NCBI GenBank assembly: GCA_015062825.1
Contig: SUTR01000024.1
Location: 1-37,426 of the forward strand
DNA: 37,426 bases
Direction of reading: 5' to 3'
Source: Methanosphaera stadtmanae
Lineage (GTDB): Archaea > Methanobacteriota > Methanobacteria > Methanobacteriales > Methanobacteriaceae
The notes under the pieces were generated by a model. It searched no databases. It saw only the letters and a list, made by a program, of their open reading frames with translations, and had not been told where the DNA came from. The translations under genes and the position numbers were made by a program. Shown here one piece after another: positions 9,969 to 35,920 of this stretch. How positions within the stretch are numbered: the stretch's first letter is position 1; each line of letters begins with the position of its first letter.

Positions 9969-10373
9969 ATGTCAGATAAGAAAATAAAAGCTGTGGAAAT
10001 AATAAAAGAATATGACGGATACAAGAATGTAATCATATTCAACCAGACAATATACCAGAACAAGACAAAAAAGTCAACAGGGGATGGATACTACTATACA
10101 CTAAAGACAGTAGTTCCAAGAGTAATCTATGACTACTTGGAAATAATTGATGACATAATCTACCTCATACAAAAGGAGGACTCCATCCAATTAAGTGCAA
10201 CACCAGCTAATATGGATCCTACATATGATAAAATCTACAAAAGAAAACTAAACAAGAAAAGTCATAACTTCACAATACCCAAACAACTATTCACCGAAGA
10301 CTCTACCAGCAGCTATGTTGCAAGATTCATATTCATACCAGAAACCTCACAAGTACAAATAACCTTCATATAA
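9969..10373 (+). CDS. small protein with two AbrB/SpoVT-like swapped-hairpin segments (hypothetical)
   Basis: A 134-aa soluble protein that I do not recognise by name. Two internal segments look like AbrB/SpoVT hairpins: residues 48-78, with VVPRVIYDYLEIIDDIIYLI (compare the usual IPkxIrexLgixxGDxvxl), and residues 100-134, with FTIPKQLF and an RFIFIP strand. DNA binding is therefore a reasonable guess. The start ATG follows GGTGAG at about 5 bases. Two decayed relatives occur in the window: a 3' fragment at 11263-11412 and a broken leftward copy at 18307-18690. It lies alone between the histone gene and the adhesin locus. Confidence 0.6.
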   Translation: MSDKKIKAVEIIKEYDGYKNVIIFNQTIYQNKTKKSTGDGYYYTLKTVVPRVIYDYLEIIDDIIYLIQKEDSIQLSATPANMDPTYDKIYKRKLNKKSHNFTIPKQLFTEDSTSSYVARFIFIPETSQVQITFI

Positions 10374-10599
10374 ATAATCATATACTATATCAAATTAATT
10401 ATATTATAATGATAAACAACACATACAGATACTAGTACAAGACACTCATCTACAACAAACATAATAACCATAATCAAAGTTACAAAAGAACATTTAGCTT
10501 ATAAAAATAAGCTAATACTACTAGTCATATGGGGGCCTGTCAAATAGCACCAAAATATATAAATACTAACTCTAACCATAATATAAATAGAATATGTTA
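10374..10599. other. intergenic DNA with one hairpin
   Basis: No gene was found. A perfect 9-bp hairpin (TTAGCTTAT/ATAAGCTAA, loop AAAA) lies at 10494-10515, without a following T-run. A short leftward ORF (10572-10616, beginning MQETDL) runs out of the inverted-end element that starts at 10600. Confidence 0.4.
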
Positions 10600-10906
10600 A
10601 GGTCTGTTTCTTGCATATTTATAGAGGAAATCATATGTGCGTGAGTAAGATGTATTTTTATACTTATTACTCATTGCAATATGATTTATAAACTGATTCT
10701 GAATCTAATTTTTCTTATCTAATTTATAACATATTTATCATATTAATTATTATTATTTGGTCATTACATGATTATGTTTTGTTTTTAATCATCACTATTT
10801 CATGTTTTAATTAAACCTGAACTCTTCCAAACCTAATCCTCCTCTAGTTAGTTTAAAAAGTTTGGTAATTGTCGGTGGAGGTGATGACTATGCATGAAAC
10901 AGACCT
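10600..10906. mobile_element. 307-bp element with 18-bp terminal inverted repeats (MITE-like)
   Basis: The left end AGGTCTGTTTCTTGCATA (10600-10617) and the complement of the right end (10889-10906) match at 17 of 18 positions. The interior has no transposase. It contains a structured hairpin at 10641-10674 (8-bp outer stem, 3x3 internal loop, 4-bp inner stem). A Shine-Dalgarno in the right part precedes an ORF whose start codon lies in the right end. Flanking target-site duplications were not evident. It may be a non-autonomous transposon remnant or a two-headed small-gene locus; see findings. Confidence 0.45.
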
Positions 10907-10979
10907 ACAAATGATCCTACTACTTTTAGATATAATTATCAAGGTAGTAACTATTTTGAAGCTACTTCAAATAGTATGA
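10890..10979 (+). CDS. candidate 29-aa hydrophobic peptide
   Basis: A 29-codon ORF preceded by GGAGGTGATGACT, one of the strongest Shine-Dalgarno sequences in the window. The peptide starts MHETDLQMILLLLD and continues with Ile/Leu/Val interrupted by single Lys, Thr and Gln residues, giving an amphipathic hydrophobic helix. Size and composition recall the 29-aa TisB toxin of E. coli, but there is no demonstrated homology. Against it: another frame over the same DNA (to the TAG at 10994) reads like the tail of an adhesin Ig-like domain (FRYNYQGSNYFEATSN). A similar peptide lies at 29310-29405. Confidence 0.4.
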   Translation: MHETDLQMILLLLDIIIKVVTILKLLQIV

Positions 10980-11228: not shown

Positions 11229-11262
11229 ACAAAATCCAACACCAGTCGAAAAAAATCCAGCA

Positions 11263-11412
11263 CAAGAGGATATCTTCAAAAGAAAACTAAATAAGAAAAG
11301 TCATAACTTTACAATACCCAAACAACTATTTGCTGAAGACTCTACCAGCAACTATGTAGCAAGATTCATATTCATACCAGAAACCTCACAAATCGAAATA
11401 ACATTCATTTGA
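11263..11412 (+). pseudogene. 3' fragment of a second copy of the AbrB-like gene
   Basis: The last 48 codons of the gene at 9969-10373 are repeated here with few changes: FKRKLNKKSHNFTIPKQLF, AEDSTSNYVARFIFIPETSQ and ITFI before TGA. The 5' two thirds are missing and replaced by the adhesin fragment. Codons are almost identical, so the duplication is fairly recent. Confidence 0.85.
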
Positions 11413-22652: not shown

Positions 22653-24095
22653 TTATGCTAAACCAAAAGTAGATAATGGTATGAATATTATTTTATCTTC
22701 TTTGGTTATGAAGTCTGTTTTATTGGATATGACAACACCATAATCTGATTTATAATAATTAATTGCTTTAGTAATTTGTTTTTTATTTTTCTTACCTATT
22801 CCTACTTCAATAGGAATTACATTTCCATTCATAGTTGTTATAATAAAATCAACACCACCCTTTCTAGAATCATAATAAATACCAGTTTTATTCTTTTTAG
22901 TTTCTTTAATTCTGTGCAATGTTGATGCCACCATGTTTTCAGCCAATATTCCAAGACTTTGTCTAGTATCCCTTGATAAGTCACCTTCACTTAAAAAAAA
23001 TGCTGCTTTGCTTTGTGTTGATAAGAAATAGTACTTTGTGGGTGTTCTGCTCTGTTTTGATGGCGAACCGTATATTTCTATAGGGAATATTAATTCTGTT
23101 TTTTTTAAAATCTTCAATAGGTTTTCTATAGTTTTTGTTGAAGTTTGAATATTATTAGCAATTTTATTGACTGCCATTTCACCAGGTTTTACTGTGGCAA
23201 GTAATAAAATTAGTTCATATGCTTTTAATCTGGTTTCACTTTTTATTGATGAAATTAAATCCATATCTGTTTCGATTATTTTATCTGATACTTCAAGTGT
23301 TGTCTGTATACTATCTATCTTATTTTTAAGTATTGTTACAGGTAAGTCACCATATTCTAAGAAGTATTCAAATTCCTTTTTAACATTATGTTTTAAAATT
23401 TTATATTCATTTAATTGTAATTTTTTTTCAATTTTTTCTATTTCATTAATATGTCCAGTTATCAACATCTCAAATATTATATCTGTAAAATCATAGGTGA
23501 TGTTTACGTTATAATTCAATTCCATATATTCTGAAAAATTTAACGGATACATTTGTTTTTTTAGAGATCTTCTTAATGTATCGGCAGTTAATTCCAAATT
23601 TAATGCATTGGATCCGGTGAAGATGATTAATACATTTGAATTTTCATCATACATTGTTTTAGCAGTTAAATTCCAATCTTTGGCATATTGTGTTTCATCA
23701 ATTAAAATAAATATTGGCATATCAGTTAAATAGTATTCATCATTAATATCTTTTATAAACACATCTAAATAGTCGAGAAGATTAAAATCTGGTTTATGTT
23801 TTAATCGGTTCAAGTCAAGAAATAGTATTCTGTTTTCTTCGATATTCTTTTCATCATGTAAATATTTATATAACTGATAAAGTAGGGTAGTTTTTCCTAC
23901 ACCTCTAATTCCAGGAATAATAAATGACCTGTTTGGATTACAGGAGTCAAGGAATTCATCAATATATTCTTTTAATTCGAAATAAAGGTTTCTTTCTTTT
24001 AAGTATTTATAATCATGATTTAAATTGTTTGAGATTAAAGAATTTGAAGTGTTTATATTATTAATTAAAGTACTTCTAATTTCAAGTTCATCCAT
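22653..24095 (-). CDS. AAA ATPase with DUF4143 C-terminal domain
   Basis: An intact 480-aa archaeal ATPase of the AAA_14/DUF4143 group, common and variably present in archaea and anaerobic bacteria, of unknown cellular role. Walker A is PGIRGVGKTTLLYQL (residues 61-75), Walker B is PIFILIDETQYAKDW (about 127-141), followed by a sensor IIFTGSNALNLE. A winged-helix-like segment (EMAVNKIANNIQTSTKTIEN) precedes DUF4143, which ends with the nuclease-like YDSRKGGVDFII ... IPIEVG signature. That Asp-Glu pattern resembles PD-(D/E)XK folds. Start ATG follows GGGAGGATATTTTATC. A 31-bp repeat array lies just upstream. Two related genes in the window are broken. Confidence 0.9.
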   Translation of the reverse strand: MDELEIRSTLINNINTSNSLISNNLNHDYKYLKERNLYFELKEYIDEFLDSCNPNRSFIIPGIRGVGKTTLLYQLYKYLHDEKNIEENRILFLDLNRLKHKPDFNLLDYLDVFIKDINDEYYLTDMPIFILIDETQYAKDWNLTAKTMYDENSNVLIIFTGSNALNLELTADTLRRSLKKQMYPLNFSEYMELNYNVNITYDFTDIIFEMLITGHINEIEKIEKKLQLNEYKILKHNVKKEFEYFLEYGDLPVTILKNKIDSIQTTLEVSDKIIETDMDLISSIKSETRLKAYELILLLATVKPGEMAVNKIANNIQTSTKTIENLLKILKKTELIFPIEIYGSPSKQSRTPTKYYFLSTQSKAAFFLSEGDLSRDTRQSLGILAENMVASTLHRIKETKKNKTGIYYDSRKGGVDFIITTMNGNVIPIEVGIGKKNKKQITKAINYYKSDYGVVISNKTDFITKEDKIIFIPLSTFGLA

Positions 24096-24130
24096 GATAA
24101 AATATCCTCCCTATAATAATTATTATATTA

Positions 24131-24246
24131 TTTATCTTTTATAAAATATAATTATTAGTATTTTATCTTTTATAAAATATAATTATTAGTATTTTATCTT
24201 TTATAAAATATAATTATTAGTATTTTATCTTTTATAAAATATAATT
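24131..24246. repeat. 31-bp tandem repeats upstream of the ATPase gene
   Basis: Four near-identical 31-bp units, recognisable by ATC at 24134, 24165, 24196 and 24227. Successive units contain the dyad ATTTTAT-N5-ATAAAAT and TATA-like cores. The array begins about 36 bases upstream of the ATPase ATG (24095), so it covers the promoter. There are no unique spacers, so it is not a CRISPR. Confidence 0.85.
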
Positions 24247-24299
24247 TTCTTAATATTAAGAATGCATAGTCAGAGCATTGAATGGTAAAATAGTTTAAT

Positions 24300-24536
24300 A
24301 TGCCTTTTACACCATCTAAAGATATATCTAATATTCGATTGACAGCCCAACTTTTTGCAGAAGATGGAACACTTGTTGGTGAAATGACTGATGGTTATTT
24401 AGTTTAAAATAAATATTTTGGTTATAAAGAATATAATTTCTGGATTTTAATTCCTTTAAAAGAGAAAAAACAACCAAAAAAGATTAGTTTTAGAATAATC
24501 AATCCAAATTATAATATAATAAAAGTAAAAAATTAG
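24300..24536 (+). pseudogene. unidentified small gene with one in-frame stop
   Basis: One frame reads MPFTPSKDISNIRLTAQLF, AEDGTLVGEMTDGYLV, stop TAA (24405-24407), then NKYFGYKEYNFWILIPLKE, KKISFRIINPNYNIIKVKN to TAG at 24534. The downstream part is coherent and beta-rich, so the stop is likely a disabling mutation in the C-terminal beta-sandwich of a larger protein. I cannot name the family. No Shine-Dalgarno is seen at the ATG, so the true 5' end may be lost. Confidence 0.5.
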
Positions 24537-24658
24537 ATTTATTAAAATGTCATGTTAAAAGAATATATAAATAGATTCTTACATAGACATTCCACTTAAT
24601 TACTATGCTTTTTGCTGTTTAATTGAAAGTTATTAATATGCTTAATATGGCTTAATTG
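24515..24658. repeat. dispersed copy of the repeat unit found at 29.6-30.1 kb
   Basis: From ataaaagtaaaaaattagat to aatatgcttaatatggct it aligns along its length with units of the tandem array at 29698-30130, including an imperfect form of the hairpin (agaatatataaatagattct). It abuts the truncated end of the transposase gene and overlaps the stop codon of the preceding remnant. Confidence 0.75.
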
Positions 24659-28725: not shown

Positions 28726-29309
28726 ATCAGACCATTCTCCATGGATTATAATTTACTATGATAATGTATATGGGTGGGGCAATATTTAAAATTTTTTAGA
28801 GATTTAAACAAGAAAAGAAGTTTATATCACTAGTAATTAAGTGATTAATGAGTTTATATTCATGAAATATTGATTATTTTCGGAGATGTCATGTGGTGGT
28901 TAATGTATTTTCTTATAATAGTTATTTCCATTAATTTTAATGATTAATCATGATAAATAAGGATTATAAAATTTTTTTTATATACACTTTTGTTGGTGTA
29001 TAATTTTTTGTGTTTTTGTTCATTTCGTGGTTGTGTTTTGTGTATTTTATATTTTTTAGTATTTTTATTATATTAGTGTTATTTTGTTAATGAATTTGAT
29101 GATTTTTGTGTTGTTTTGTTTATTTTGTTTATCTTGTTTTCTTGTGTTTTGTCGGATATTGTTATAATATGCGAACAAACATAATAAGTAAGAAAAACAA
29201 AAACAACACAAGAATATTGTATAAAAAATAGTTATAGTTACTATATGAAGTGTAGGTATAATTAGAATCCTGTGTCGTTTGACTATTTTTAGTTAAAGAA
29301 TAGGAGAGG
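28726..29309. repeat. intergenic DNA containing a copy of the Lrp-gene promoter region
   Basis: Bases 28890-29001 match 34942-35055, the 5' end and upstream of the damaged Lrp gene (shared core ttaatgtattttct, then aattttaatg and ataaataa). A dyad ATACACT-N6-GGTGTAT at 28982-29001 overlaps a leftward TATA-like box. Bases 29002-29309 are AT/GT-rich with no gene recognised. Part of this region may be a long leader of the adhesin gene starting at 28725. Confidence 0.5.
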
Positions 29310-29405
29310 TCATTCTTTCAATATTTTGTATAAAGAAATTATTTCCTTTAAAATTTCAAGTAACATTAATATTAATGTCAAAACTTGATAGGTGGGATCA
29401 AACAT
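29310..29405 (-). CDS. candidate 31-aa hydrophobic peptide
   Basis: A 31-codon minus-strand ORF with a near-perfect Shine-Dalgarno (GAGGAGGTGA, 4 bases before the ATG) and a TATA-like TTATATTTTA about 35-45 bases upstream. The peptide begins MFDPTYQVLTLILMLLEIL and continues with an amphipathic KEIISLYKILKE tail, predicting one helix. It resembles the 29-aa candidate at 10890 in start context (ACTATG after GGAGGTGA), length, Gln at position 7 and Leu/Ile content. Its first codons lie in one arm of a 300-bp inverted-end element. Possible functions are a membrane-active (TisB-like) toxin or a small membrane regulator; no homology was tested. Confidence 0.55.
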   Translation of the reverse strand: MFDPTYQVLTLILMLLEILKEIISLYKILKE

Positions 29406-29690
29406 AGTTTCACCTCCTCAATAGTCTGTAAAAGATGTTTAAAATATAATTAAGGTGTATTAATATTATATTAAAAACAAAAAAGGATTATCATTATACC
29501 TACAGTATTACTTTTTATAATAAATAGTACTAATAATTTTTGAAAAAATAGAATAATAACTTTAATTACTAAAAAAATAATGTTAAAAATAAATTTAATC
29601 TAAAAAATGTTATTCTTAAATGAATCTAATTAAAGATTCATAAAAAACATTTTTTTACACCTTAAATACTATGTTGACCCCACCTACTGA
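29389..29690. mobile_element. about 300-bp element with imperfect terminal inverted repeats
   Basis: Left end TAGGTGGGATCAAACATAG (about 29390-29408) pairs with the complement of the right end (29670-29688), with one mismatch and one gap. A nested pair TTAAGGTGTA lies inside (about 29450 and 29658). The interior includes a perfect 8-bp hairpin ATGAATCT/AGATTCAT (29620-29641). It resembles the 10600-10906 element in size and in having ATGs in both arms. Confidence 0.45.
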
Positions 29691-30130
29691 AGTCAATAGT
29701 ATGATTAATAATATTTAATTAATAAGTATATATACTTATCTAAAAATTATATATAAATAAAAGTAAAAAAATTAGATTTCATAAAGTCATGTTAAAAGAA
29801 TCTATAAATAGATTCTAACATAAACATCTGCTTATTTACTATGCTTTCCGTCGTTTTACTGAAAGTCACTAGTATGATTAATATTATTAAATTAATTAGT
29901 ATATATACTTATCTAAAAAATAATTACTATCTAATAGATAAATTAAGTAAAAAAAATTAGATTTCATAAAGTCATGTATTAAGAATCTTAAAAAAGACTC
30001 TTACATGATTATAGACCTTTTATACTATTACCCTTACTGTAAAAAGAATATAGTATGCTTAATAATATGACTTAATTAGTATATATACTTATCTTAAAAA
30101 TAAATTCATCATTATAAAAGTAATAAAATC
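29575..30130 (+). repeat. tandem array of about 175-bp degenerate units upstream of the recombinase
   Basis: Units start with tagtatg at 29698, 29870 and 30051 (spacing 172 and 181), with partial units before and after. Each contains a 12-bp palindrome AGTATATATACT (29725, 29898, 30078; an 18-bp palindrome in the first). Full units add attagatttcataaagtcat and a hairpin such as AGAATCTA/TAGATTCT (29798-29817). The array ends just before the recombinase ribosome-binding site. A fifth copy is at 24515-24658. Confidence 0.8.
29841..29960 (+). CDS. candidate 39-aa hydrophobic peptide inside the repeat array
   Basis: A 39-codon ORF spans two repeat units and begins MLSVVLLKVTSMINIIKLIS. The same position in the preceding unit reads MLTPPTEVNSMINNI then stop; the unit at 24.6 kb reads MLFAV then stop. 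No Shine-Dalgarno precedes it. It may be a decayed relative of the peptide at 29310, or chance. Confidence 0.25.
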   Translation: MLSVVLLKVTSMINIIKLISIYTYLKNNYYLIDKLSKKN

Positions 30131-30145
30131 AGAAGGATCAATCTC

Positions 30146-31005
30146 TTGTTAATTAACAAAGAAACAATAACAAACTATGTAAAAGCAATAACCAATCCCA
30201 ACACAAGAAAAACATACAGACTATCACTAAACAAATTCCACAACTACCTCCAATACAATAACATTAACTACATAAACCAGGAAAACCTTAACTAAATAAT
30301 ACATGATTACAAAGCATACCTAAACAACAGGAACCTAAAAGCAATAACCATAAACCAGCACATGATAATACTCAAGACATTCATCAATGAATATACCAAG
30401 CTAAGCTATGATAAAGACCTAAAACTAATAAAAACCGAGAAAAGAAAACCCAACTACTTAACACTAGAACAAATACAAACAGCACTAAACTATACAGAGG
30501 ATAAAACTGACGAATTGATAATAAAACTACTAACCAGTACAGGCCTACGTATACATGAAGCACTAAACATAACCAAGAAACAACTTAAAAACACAGATGA
30601 AACAGGAAATGCAATTGTATCAATCGTGGGAAAGAATACAAAAAGAAGACTAATAGTCATACCCACTAAACTATCAAGACAGTTAAGAAGATACTCTAAA
30701 GATCATAAAAAATACATCTTCGAATCAGATAGAAAAGAATCAAAACCACTAACATCAAGATCAATACAACGAAGATTAAAAAACTAGCAGCAAAAATAGA
30801 CAAAAAAGAAAACACTACATTATACTCAGAAAACCTAAAACCACACAACCTACGACACAGCTTCGCAATACAAGCACTAAAAAACAACGAAATAAACTAC
30901 GTAAAAGAATTCCTAGGACATGAAAACATAGCAACCACACAAATATACACTAATCTAAAAGAAAAAGATGTTGTAGAAAGATTTAAAAAATTAAAAACAA
31001 TATAA
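30146..31005 (+). pseudogene. tyrosine recombinase/integrase (XerA-like), one stop and one frameshift
   Basis: From a TTG (30146, after AGAAGGATC) the frame reads an N-terminal SAM-like core-binding domain (TRKTYRLSLNKFHNYLQYNN), hits TAA at 30293-30295, then continues in the same frame. It goes on through the catalytic domain with the first Arg in TSTGLRIHEAL and KNTKRRLIVIP, until TAG at 30785. A one-base shift near 30772 restores the rest: HNLRHSFAIQ (HxxR), FLGHENI and the nucleophile in QIYTNL, ending at 31005. All catalytic elements (R, K, HxxR, H, Y) survive, so inactivation is recent or marginal. It lies between two adhesin genes. Confidence 0.88.
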
Positions 31006-35109: not shown

Positions 35110-35511
35110 ATGGATGCTACTATAAGGATTGATTTGGATATTCAAAGGCAATTAAAACTTAAAAGTGTTGAATTGGGAGTTACACAAAAAGAATTAGCTA
35201 ATACTTATATTTTAAATGGATTAAATGGAGAAAAAAGTAAGAGTAATATGAAAAGTATTGAAGATATTGCAAAAGTACTGAATATAGAAATAGAGAATAT
35301 TGATGATGTGTTAGCTGATTTGGATGTAGATGAATATGAAATACTTTCAGAGGAAAAACATTTAAATATGGATGAAATAAAGGATATTGTTAATAATAAC
35401 AGAAGTAATGAGGAAAGTAATGTAAATCTTACGGATATGATTGGAATAGTTGAATCTCCTCAAAAAACAGATAGTCTAGAAGAGAAAATGGAATCCTATG
35501 ATAGGCGGTAA
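35110..35511 (+). CDS. ribbon-helix-helix antitoxin (VapB-like)
   Basis: A 133-aa protein whose first 40 residues look like a ribbon-helix-helix domain (TIRIDLDIQRQLKLKSVELG, VTQKELANTYILNGLN). The rest is acidic and probably unstructured or toxin-binding (DVLADLDVDEYEILSEEKHL). The start ATG follows GAAGGTGG. Its stop is 4 bases before the preferred PIN-toxin ATG, so the pair is co-transcribed and probably translationally coupled. Antitoxins of this type bind and block the PIN nuclease and repress their own promoter. It is longer than usual VapB proteins. Confidence 0.75.
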   Translation: MDATIRIDLDIQRQLKLKSVELGVTQKELANTYILNGLNGEKSKSNMKSIEDIAKVLNIEIENIDDVLADLDVDEYEILSEEKHLNMDEIKDIVNNNRSNEESNVNLTDMIGIVESPQKTDSLEEKMESYDRR

Positions 35512-35515
35512 TCTG

Positions 35516-35920
35516 ATGATATTTCTAGATAGTAGTTTTATCCTAGCATTGTTTAATAAAAATGAAGTTAAAAATCATGAAAAAGCTAAAAAACTTTTAA
35601 AAAATAATCCAAATCTAGATAAAGTTCCTAAAGCAATAAACAGCATAGTATTAAATGAAGTACTGAATAAGCTGAAAAAATCATATTATAATGAAAAAAG
35701 GGAACAAATCATATCCTTTCTATTAAATATGGATAAGATTATTTTTGTAAGTGAAAATGACTACAAAAAAGCAATAAAATTATACAAAAAATATGACTAC
35801 TCAATCAATTATAGTGATTGGTTAATTATTTTATCTATGGAAAAAGAGGGGTTAACTGATATACTCTCTTTTGATAATGATTTTAATAAGGTTAAAGAAA
35901 TAAATAATATATCCATTTAA
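35516..35920 (+). CDS. PIN-domain ribonuclease toxin (VapC-like)
   Basis: A 134-aa PIN-domain protein. The acidic active site can be read: Asp5 in MIFLDSSFILALF, Glu in INSIVLNEVLNKL, Asp in INYSDWLIILSM, and a late Asp pair in DILSFDNDFNKV. VapC toxins cleave tRNA or rRNA when freed from antitoxin. An upstream in-frame ATG (35498) lies inside the antitoxin gene; the ATG at 35516, after GGCGGT, starts right at the PIN strand and is preferred. The gene appears intact although everything around it is decayed. Confidence 0.85.
   Translation: MIFLDSSFILALFNKNEVKNHEKAKKLLKNNPNLDKVPKAINSIVLNEVLNKLKKSYYNEKREQIISFLLNMDKIIFVSENDYKKAIKLYKKYDYSINYSDWLIILSMEKEGLTDILSFDNDFNKVKEINNISI

Follow-up and report, generated by a model that had tools for sequence, protein, structure and literature searches.

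Genes and features of the locus

The window, as the entire stretch of 37,426 nucleotides of Methanosphaera stadtmanae DNA analysed here (contig C129) will be called, encodes methanogen housekeeping genes together with several large adhesin-like proteins. Short hydrophobic peptides assigned to two families, A and B, are encoded at two loci:

29310–29405, minus strand: family A peptide ORF, putative type I toxin gene (31 aa including stop, MFDPTYQVLTLILMLLEILKEIISLYKILKE; homologues in Methanosphaera and one Methanobrevibacter MAG)
29410–29419, minus strand: strong Shine-Dalgarno sequence (SD) GAGGAGGTGA of the family A peptide gene
10890–10979, plus strand: family B peptide ORF, putative toxin gene (29 aa, MHETDLQMILLLLDIIIKVVTILKLLQIV; SD GGAGGTGA at 10877–10884)

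An earlier sequence-only reading of this DNA had drawn attention to a leftward ORF of 31 codons with GAGGAGGTGA four bases before its ATG, and to a second locus of like design elsewhere in the window. Both were confirmed, the former at 29405–29310 (−), the latter at 10890–10979 (+) with its complementary arm at 10600–10622. In a genome-wide pattern search of the kind proposed in the same reading, GGAGGTGA-N4-ATG had a single occurrence in the window and only 8 in the whole 2.6-Mb genome; no match was obtained for GGAGGTGA-N3-ATG, because the true spacing is 4.

The suggestion that a small-peptide gene family occupies several loci with one architecture was borne out. The family A peptide of the window matches the A2 profile with an E-value of 8.9e-18 (its own sequence is included in the profile), and the genome harbours a second copy on C104 (L033), encoding MTPIVYQVLAFLLLLLEIIKELISLYKVLKE, and a third on C123 (L036), encoding MTSTTLEGVTIILIVLQIIKEIISLYKLMNE. 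By sequence, family A is present in 7 of the 20 genomes of the genus, an eighth profile match being weak, as well as in a single Methanobrevibacter MAG (L088), and is essentially missing elsewhere in the taxonomic family and in the broader phylum set. Family B was found in 4 genomes and family C (MAPEQW...; L033 3024 and L082) in 2, the second of which reaches an E-value of only 0.12 by sequence but is identical in anatomy. The order of genes is the same in all three families.

The peptides are 29–39 aa long, with a maximal 19-residue hydropathy of 1.7–2.7 and a net charge near 0. In agreement with what defines a type I toxin gene, the product is thus small (<60 aa), hydrophobic and conserved, even though the constraint at the protein level is modest (pN/pS of 0.50 over codons 7–30, at high divergence). 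Codons 2–6 are hypervariable. None of the scanned peptides matched any Pfam entry at an E-value of 10, Hol_Tox included, or any PADLOC family; the matches in NCBIfam and PHROG were insignificant, Rfam yielded nothing useful, and neither the family A peptide nor its mRNA motif was matched in viral contigs, plasmids or phages.

Downstream of the family B locus, the end of the gene at 9969–10373 is partly duplicated at 11240–11410. The family B module thus lies between a gene and its fragment, and may have been inserted by duplication.

Predicted antisense RNA genes upstream of the peptide genes

The inverted repeat that had been noticed over the first codons of the leftward ORF is real, and the starts of the leftward and rightward frames do lie 265 bp apart. 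The picture of a “two-headed” element, or of genes amplified as inverted pairs, did not survive, as the second arm corresponds to a putative antisense RNA gene oriented like the peptide gene. A rightward frame of 15 codons beginning with MLTPPTEV is indeed present, but it failed as a gene: neither an SD nor any other ribosome site precedes it, and many relatives have ATA or ATT in place of its ATG, or lack it altogether, while keeping the complementarity. The frame is therefore best regarded as a by-product of antisense complementarity, that is, as the reverse complement of the predicted antisense RNA. The elements on this side of the two loci are as follows:

29593–29706, minus strand: cognate antisense RNA unit 1, putative antitoxin (covariance model R1, 80.5 bits; A_win is part of the model)
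29662–29695, minus strand: antisense core of unit 1, complementary to codons 1–8 and upstream bases of the putative toxin mRNA (dG −33.8)
29724–29737, minus strand: TATA box AAGTATATATACTT of unit 1, ~27 nt upstream of the inferred start (similar element in 11/11 family A units)
10585–10690, plus strand: family B antisense RNA, approximate ends (core 10600–10622 complementary to the 10890 start; long hairpin 10628–10687)

Unit 1, of about 110 nt, is arranged in tandem with the peptide gene, upstream of it and on the same strand, and antisense stretches of this kind are found 250–400 bp upstream on the peptide strand. In every family A unit, a TATATATA box stands about 27 nt ahead of the inferred start and is followed by a hairpin of the form CAUACUA–core–UAGUAU, one pair of which is G-C in 6 sequences and A-U in 5 and is thus compensated. 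A second hairpin, contained within AAUGUUA...UAACAUU, precedes a T-rich stretch and resembles a terminator. These TATA boxes and terminator-like hairpins point to an RNA gene of its own, from which the antitoxin would be made as a separate transcript. Inverted repeats on one strand upstream of an ORF would also suit a cis-acting leader, in which a single long transcript sequesters the start codon in a hairpin with a ~265-nt loop and no separate RNA exists; however, the TATA box and terminator-like hairpin possessed by every unit, and the occurrence of unit arrays with no peptide gene behind them, render such a leader highly improbable.

In 17 of the 19 homologous loci tested (family A, 11/11; family B, 4/6; family C, 2/2), the upstream region contains a stretch that complements the sequence around the start codon of the peptide gene at that same locus, which upholds the earlier contention that the shared architecture is hard to attribute to chance. 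The two loci lacking the upstream partner, L074 (G003) and L076 (G006), contain family B peptide genes, which may be either solo toxins or domesticated genes. At L074, a regulator-like gene sits where the antisense partner would be.

The specificity of the pairing was assessed on 17 loci, gathered by peptide homology or by the SD pattern and not by complementarity. The mean duplex dG was −26.3 kcal/mol for cognate and −13.6 kcal/mol for non-cognate combinations, and the cognate partner ranked first at 15 of the 17 loci, the exceptions being one case of near-identical partners (G016 and C104) and L074, where no upstream RNA is present. The cognate dG values sum to −447; among 100,000 random re-pairings the lowest sum was −351, and 20 ordinary gene starts of the window, serving as a control, gave a mean of −10.9 and a minimum of −17.4. 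Several of the loci in this test are related, and A_win and A_G8a are near-identical, so that its cells are not all independent. The RNA core changes together with the first codons of the peptide, locus by locus, and in silico complementarity thus indicates the cognate-specific antisense RNA that is expected of a type I system.

Where core and target differ, 21 of the differences are G·U-compatible and 2 are incompatible (p = 3.3e-5, a value rendered somewhat optimistic by the kinship among loci). Such a bias is what would be expected if the mRNA were bound by a transcript of the inferred strand, and we read it as a signature of RNA–RNA pairing.

Systems of the creTA type (type VIII) are known from archaea, and a core that varies while its short flanks are partly conserved could be taken to suggest a similar module, with a CRISPR-like RNA guiding Cas proteins to repress the toxin gene. 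Such an explanation is scarcely tenable, since the predicted target of the core is the start codon with codons 1–8, not a promoter, the G·U asymmetry indicates an RNA target, and a search for Cas6, which covered the family PF10040, detected none in 20 Methanosphaera genomes. What is shared with creTA (PMC10767807) is a putative RNA antitoxin with a variable guide-like part; in the Methanosphaera system, however, the RNA would act on the mRNA start region, the gene encodes a peptide and no evidence of Cas involvement was seen.

Predicted structure of the peptide mRNA

Two further elements belong to the peptide transcript, the ends of which, like those of the antisense RNA, are inferred:

29251–29504, minus strand: inferred toxin mRNA (5' end 29475–29504 pairs with 3' end 29251–29280, closing stem)
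29303–29310, minus strand: anti-SD element ACCTCTCC, overlapping the stop codon

The repeat forming the closing stem is 30 nt long and 83% complementary, and the mRNA of the window has a predicted fold of −58.8 kcal/mol (z −6.4), with none of 200 shuffled sequences being as stable. The end motifs GUAGGUAUAGAUGAAGAUCC and GGAUACGGAUAUACCUAC recur in most family A loci. In the Methanobrevibacter copy (L088), GUGGG/CCCAC stands in place of the usual ends, a compensatory G-C replacement, and the mRNA ends of family C, as read directly from the sequence, pair as UGGAGGAGAA and UUCUCCUCCA. Covariation in the RNAalifold alignment backs only a few pairs of the end stem. Ten family A genes retain an intact 3' end, and each of them has an ACCUCC-like anti-SD element 2–5 nt from where the stop codon starts, with the exact ACCTC in 7; the RNAalifold consensus contains a 5' CCUC that is able to pair with the SD as well. 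The mRNAs of type I toxins have been described as typically inert at full length, some of them being closed by a 5'–3' interaction (PMC6733600). The full-length peptide mRNA may likewise be non-translatable, to judge from its predicted fold and conserved motifs, a possibility qualified by the weak covariation and the inferred ends.

A 254-bp segment bounded by a 30-nt inverted repeat could in principle be a MITE, or a member of another transposon family with terminal inverted repeats and an ORF, and a MITE carrying an ORF had been offered as one interpretation of the locus. The repeat at 29251–29280 and 29475–29504 is, however, conserved as the two mRNA ends along with anti-SD elements, and not as transposon ends; no target duplication is apparent by eye at 29251/29504; no ORF-free copies were seen in a search that was not exhaustive; and the end motif serves as a marker of peptide loci among methanogen contigs. 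A transposon is considered very unlikely. When contigs were searched with the DNA motif of the mRNA ends, peptide loci were recovered in methanogens, and three bacterial matches were not accompanied by such a peptide and look like chance.

A candidate archaeal toxin–antitoxin family and its orphan RNA units

Judging from the sequence, it is probable that the locus is one of a multi-copy family of type I toxin–antitoxin modules of Methanosphaera, and this family is most likely the first of its type in Archaea. We infer toxicity of the peptide, transcription of both genes, a translational block, a stabilising role and protection by orphan units. In the proposed scheme, the full-length mRNA would fold into an inert form with its ends closed and its SD masked, trimming or unfolding would expose the SD, and the antisense RNA, by pairing over the AUG, would block the translation of a membrane-damaging peptide. 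Should the locus and its short-lived RNA be lost, the surviving mRNA would be translated and the cell harmed, and such harm on loss, whether post-segregational or element-stabilising, would stabilise the genomic segment. Codons 2–6, co-varying with the RNA core, would give each pair its private specificity.

The RNA part of this scheme would be unchanged if the peptide were not a toxin but an antisense-regulated small membrane peptide, for instance a regulator that is induced by stress and acts on a membrane complex. Benign membrane peptides of small size are common, and the net charge near 0 favours this possibility too. Nevertheless, it appears unlikely, since an addiction module, more than a physiological regulator, fits the multi-copy, patchy distribution, the decayed peptide genes beside RNA units, the arrays of orphan RNAs and an mRNA apparently designed for inertness.

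TxpA/BsrG-type holin-like toxins (Pfam Hol_Tox) are small single-helix hydrophobic peptides under antisense control, and their antitoxins overlap the 3' end of the toxin gene. The Methanosphaera peptides, which have no Pfam match at an E-value of 10, resemble them in being small, single-helix and hydrophobic and in their predicted antisense control, but not in that overlap. With hok/Sok and aapA/IsoA the proposed modules share a small hydrophobic peptide, a predicted long-distance 5'–3' interaction in the mRNA, an SD that anti-SD elements would mask and a putative antisense RNA antitoxin; those systems, however, are bacterial and have the antitoxin opposite the toxin gene, whereas in Methanosphaera the RNA gene is placed upstream in tandem (PMC6733600). 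Predicted pairing over the start codon, imperfect G·U-containing complementarity and orphan arrays also set the latter apart, and no sequence homology to hok/Sok or aapA/IsoA was found. A separate antitoxin RNA gene adjoining the toxin gene, with short complementarity, is also a feature of tisB/istR-1, shoB/ohsC, zor/orz and dinQ/agrB, but these are divergent and pair with a long 5' UTR and not with the initiation site (PMC4147584), while the Methanosphaera RNA is encoded on the strand of the peptide gene and would act over the AUG.

Type I systems have been reported from bacteria only (PMC12390103). The msoT1/msoA1 pair of Microcystis, which likewise lies outside the classical phyla but is cyanobacterial, was called the first type I system outside Proteobacteria, Firmicutes and Tenericutes, and no archaeal one was named (PMC12390103). 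A limited literature search, which is no proof of novelty, found nothing linking Methanobacteriales with type I toxins. If the assignment is true, type I toxin–antitoxin systems extend to Archaea with a new gene order and pairing site. Its naturally specificity-swapped pairs would lend themselves to work on the diversification of RNA–RNA recognition. Gut methanogens, for which few genetic tools exist, would gain candidate modules for selection or stability, and the family would account for the unannotated repeats that recur next to adhesin genes.

The covariance model of the RNA also detects units that have no peptide gene, three of them in the window, where an integrase relic is found as well:

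29770–29879, minus strand: orphan antisense RNA unit 2 (covariance model; target sense ATGCTTTCCGTCGTTTTA)
29959–30060, minus strand: orphan antisense RNA unit 3 (best known target the putative Methanobrevibacter toxin, L088, −21.8)
24535–24643, minus strand: orphan antisense RNA unit 4 (covariance model)
30146–30996, plus strand: broken tyrosine integrase (relic), adjoining the antisense array

Other orphan units are located on C120 (two by the model and a third by DNA similarity) and C35 (two), with more in G008, G005 and G006, those of the last two genomes being weak. Family B RNAs are repeated as well (C50 twice, C101, C104). Some RNA units adjoin peptide genes with an internal stop, namely L069 (TAA) and C33:14512 (TAG; dG −31.3). 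The cores of the orphan units differ, predicting other targets, and unit 3 of the window matches the peptide start of L088 (−21.8) far better than any other known start.

Orphan units may protect against related toxins carried elsewhere, and their arrays are the least explained and most interesting part of the system. One reading, itself rather unlikely, is that the arrays constitute a small RNA immunity bank, a CRISPR-like antitoxin memory without Cas proteins, in which each unit, a structured RNA whose ~20-nt core can be exchanged, would neutralise the first-codon ‘barcode’ of a rival mobile element's toxin, with diversification of toxin barcodes as the driver.

Further broken copies of the same tyrosine integrase are present beside antisense-RNA arrays at L031 2927–3790 and L032 569–1232; a TGA at the same position is common to the copies of C120 and C35, and two putative toxin loci of G008 retain the C-terminal part of the integrase only. 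Integron-like capture of units by the adjacent integrase was considered and rejected, as the copies are broken and present-day capture by them is unlikely.

Two other observations concern the surroundings. Tandem AT-rich repeats of ~31 bp (TAATTATTAGTATTTTATCTTTTATAAAATA) at 24126–24258 lie upstream of the ATPase-like gene at 22653–24095, near a transposase-like fragment and orphan unit 4. Finally, a small ORF that may encode an antitoxin, with a PIN-like protein after it, was recognised by eye at 35110–35920 as a VapBC-like pair, which would place a putative type II toxin–antitoxin system close to the proposed type I loci.
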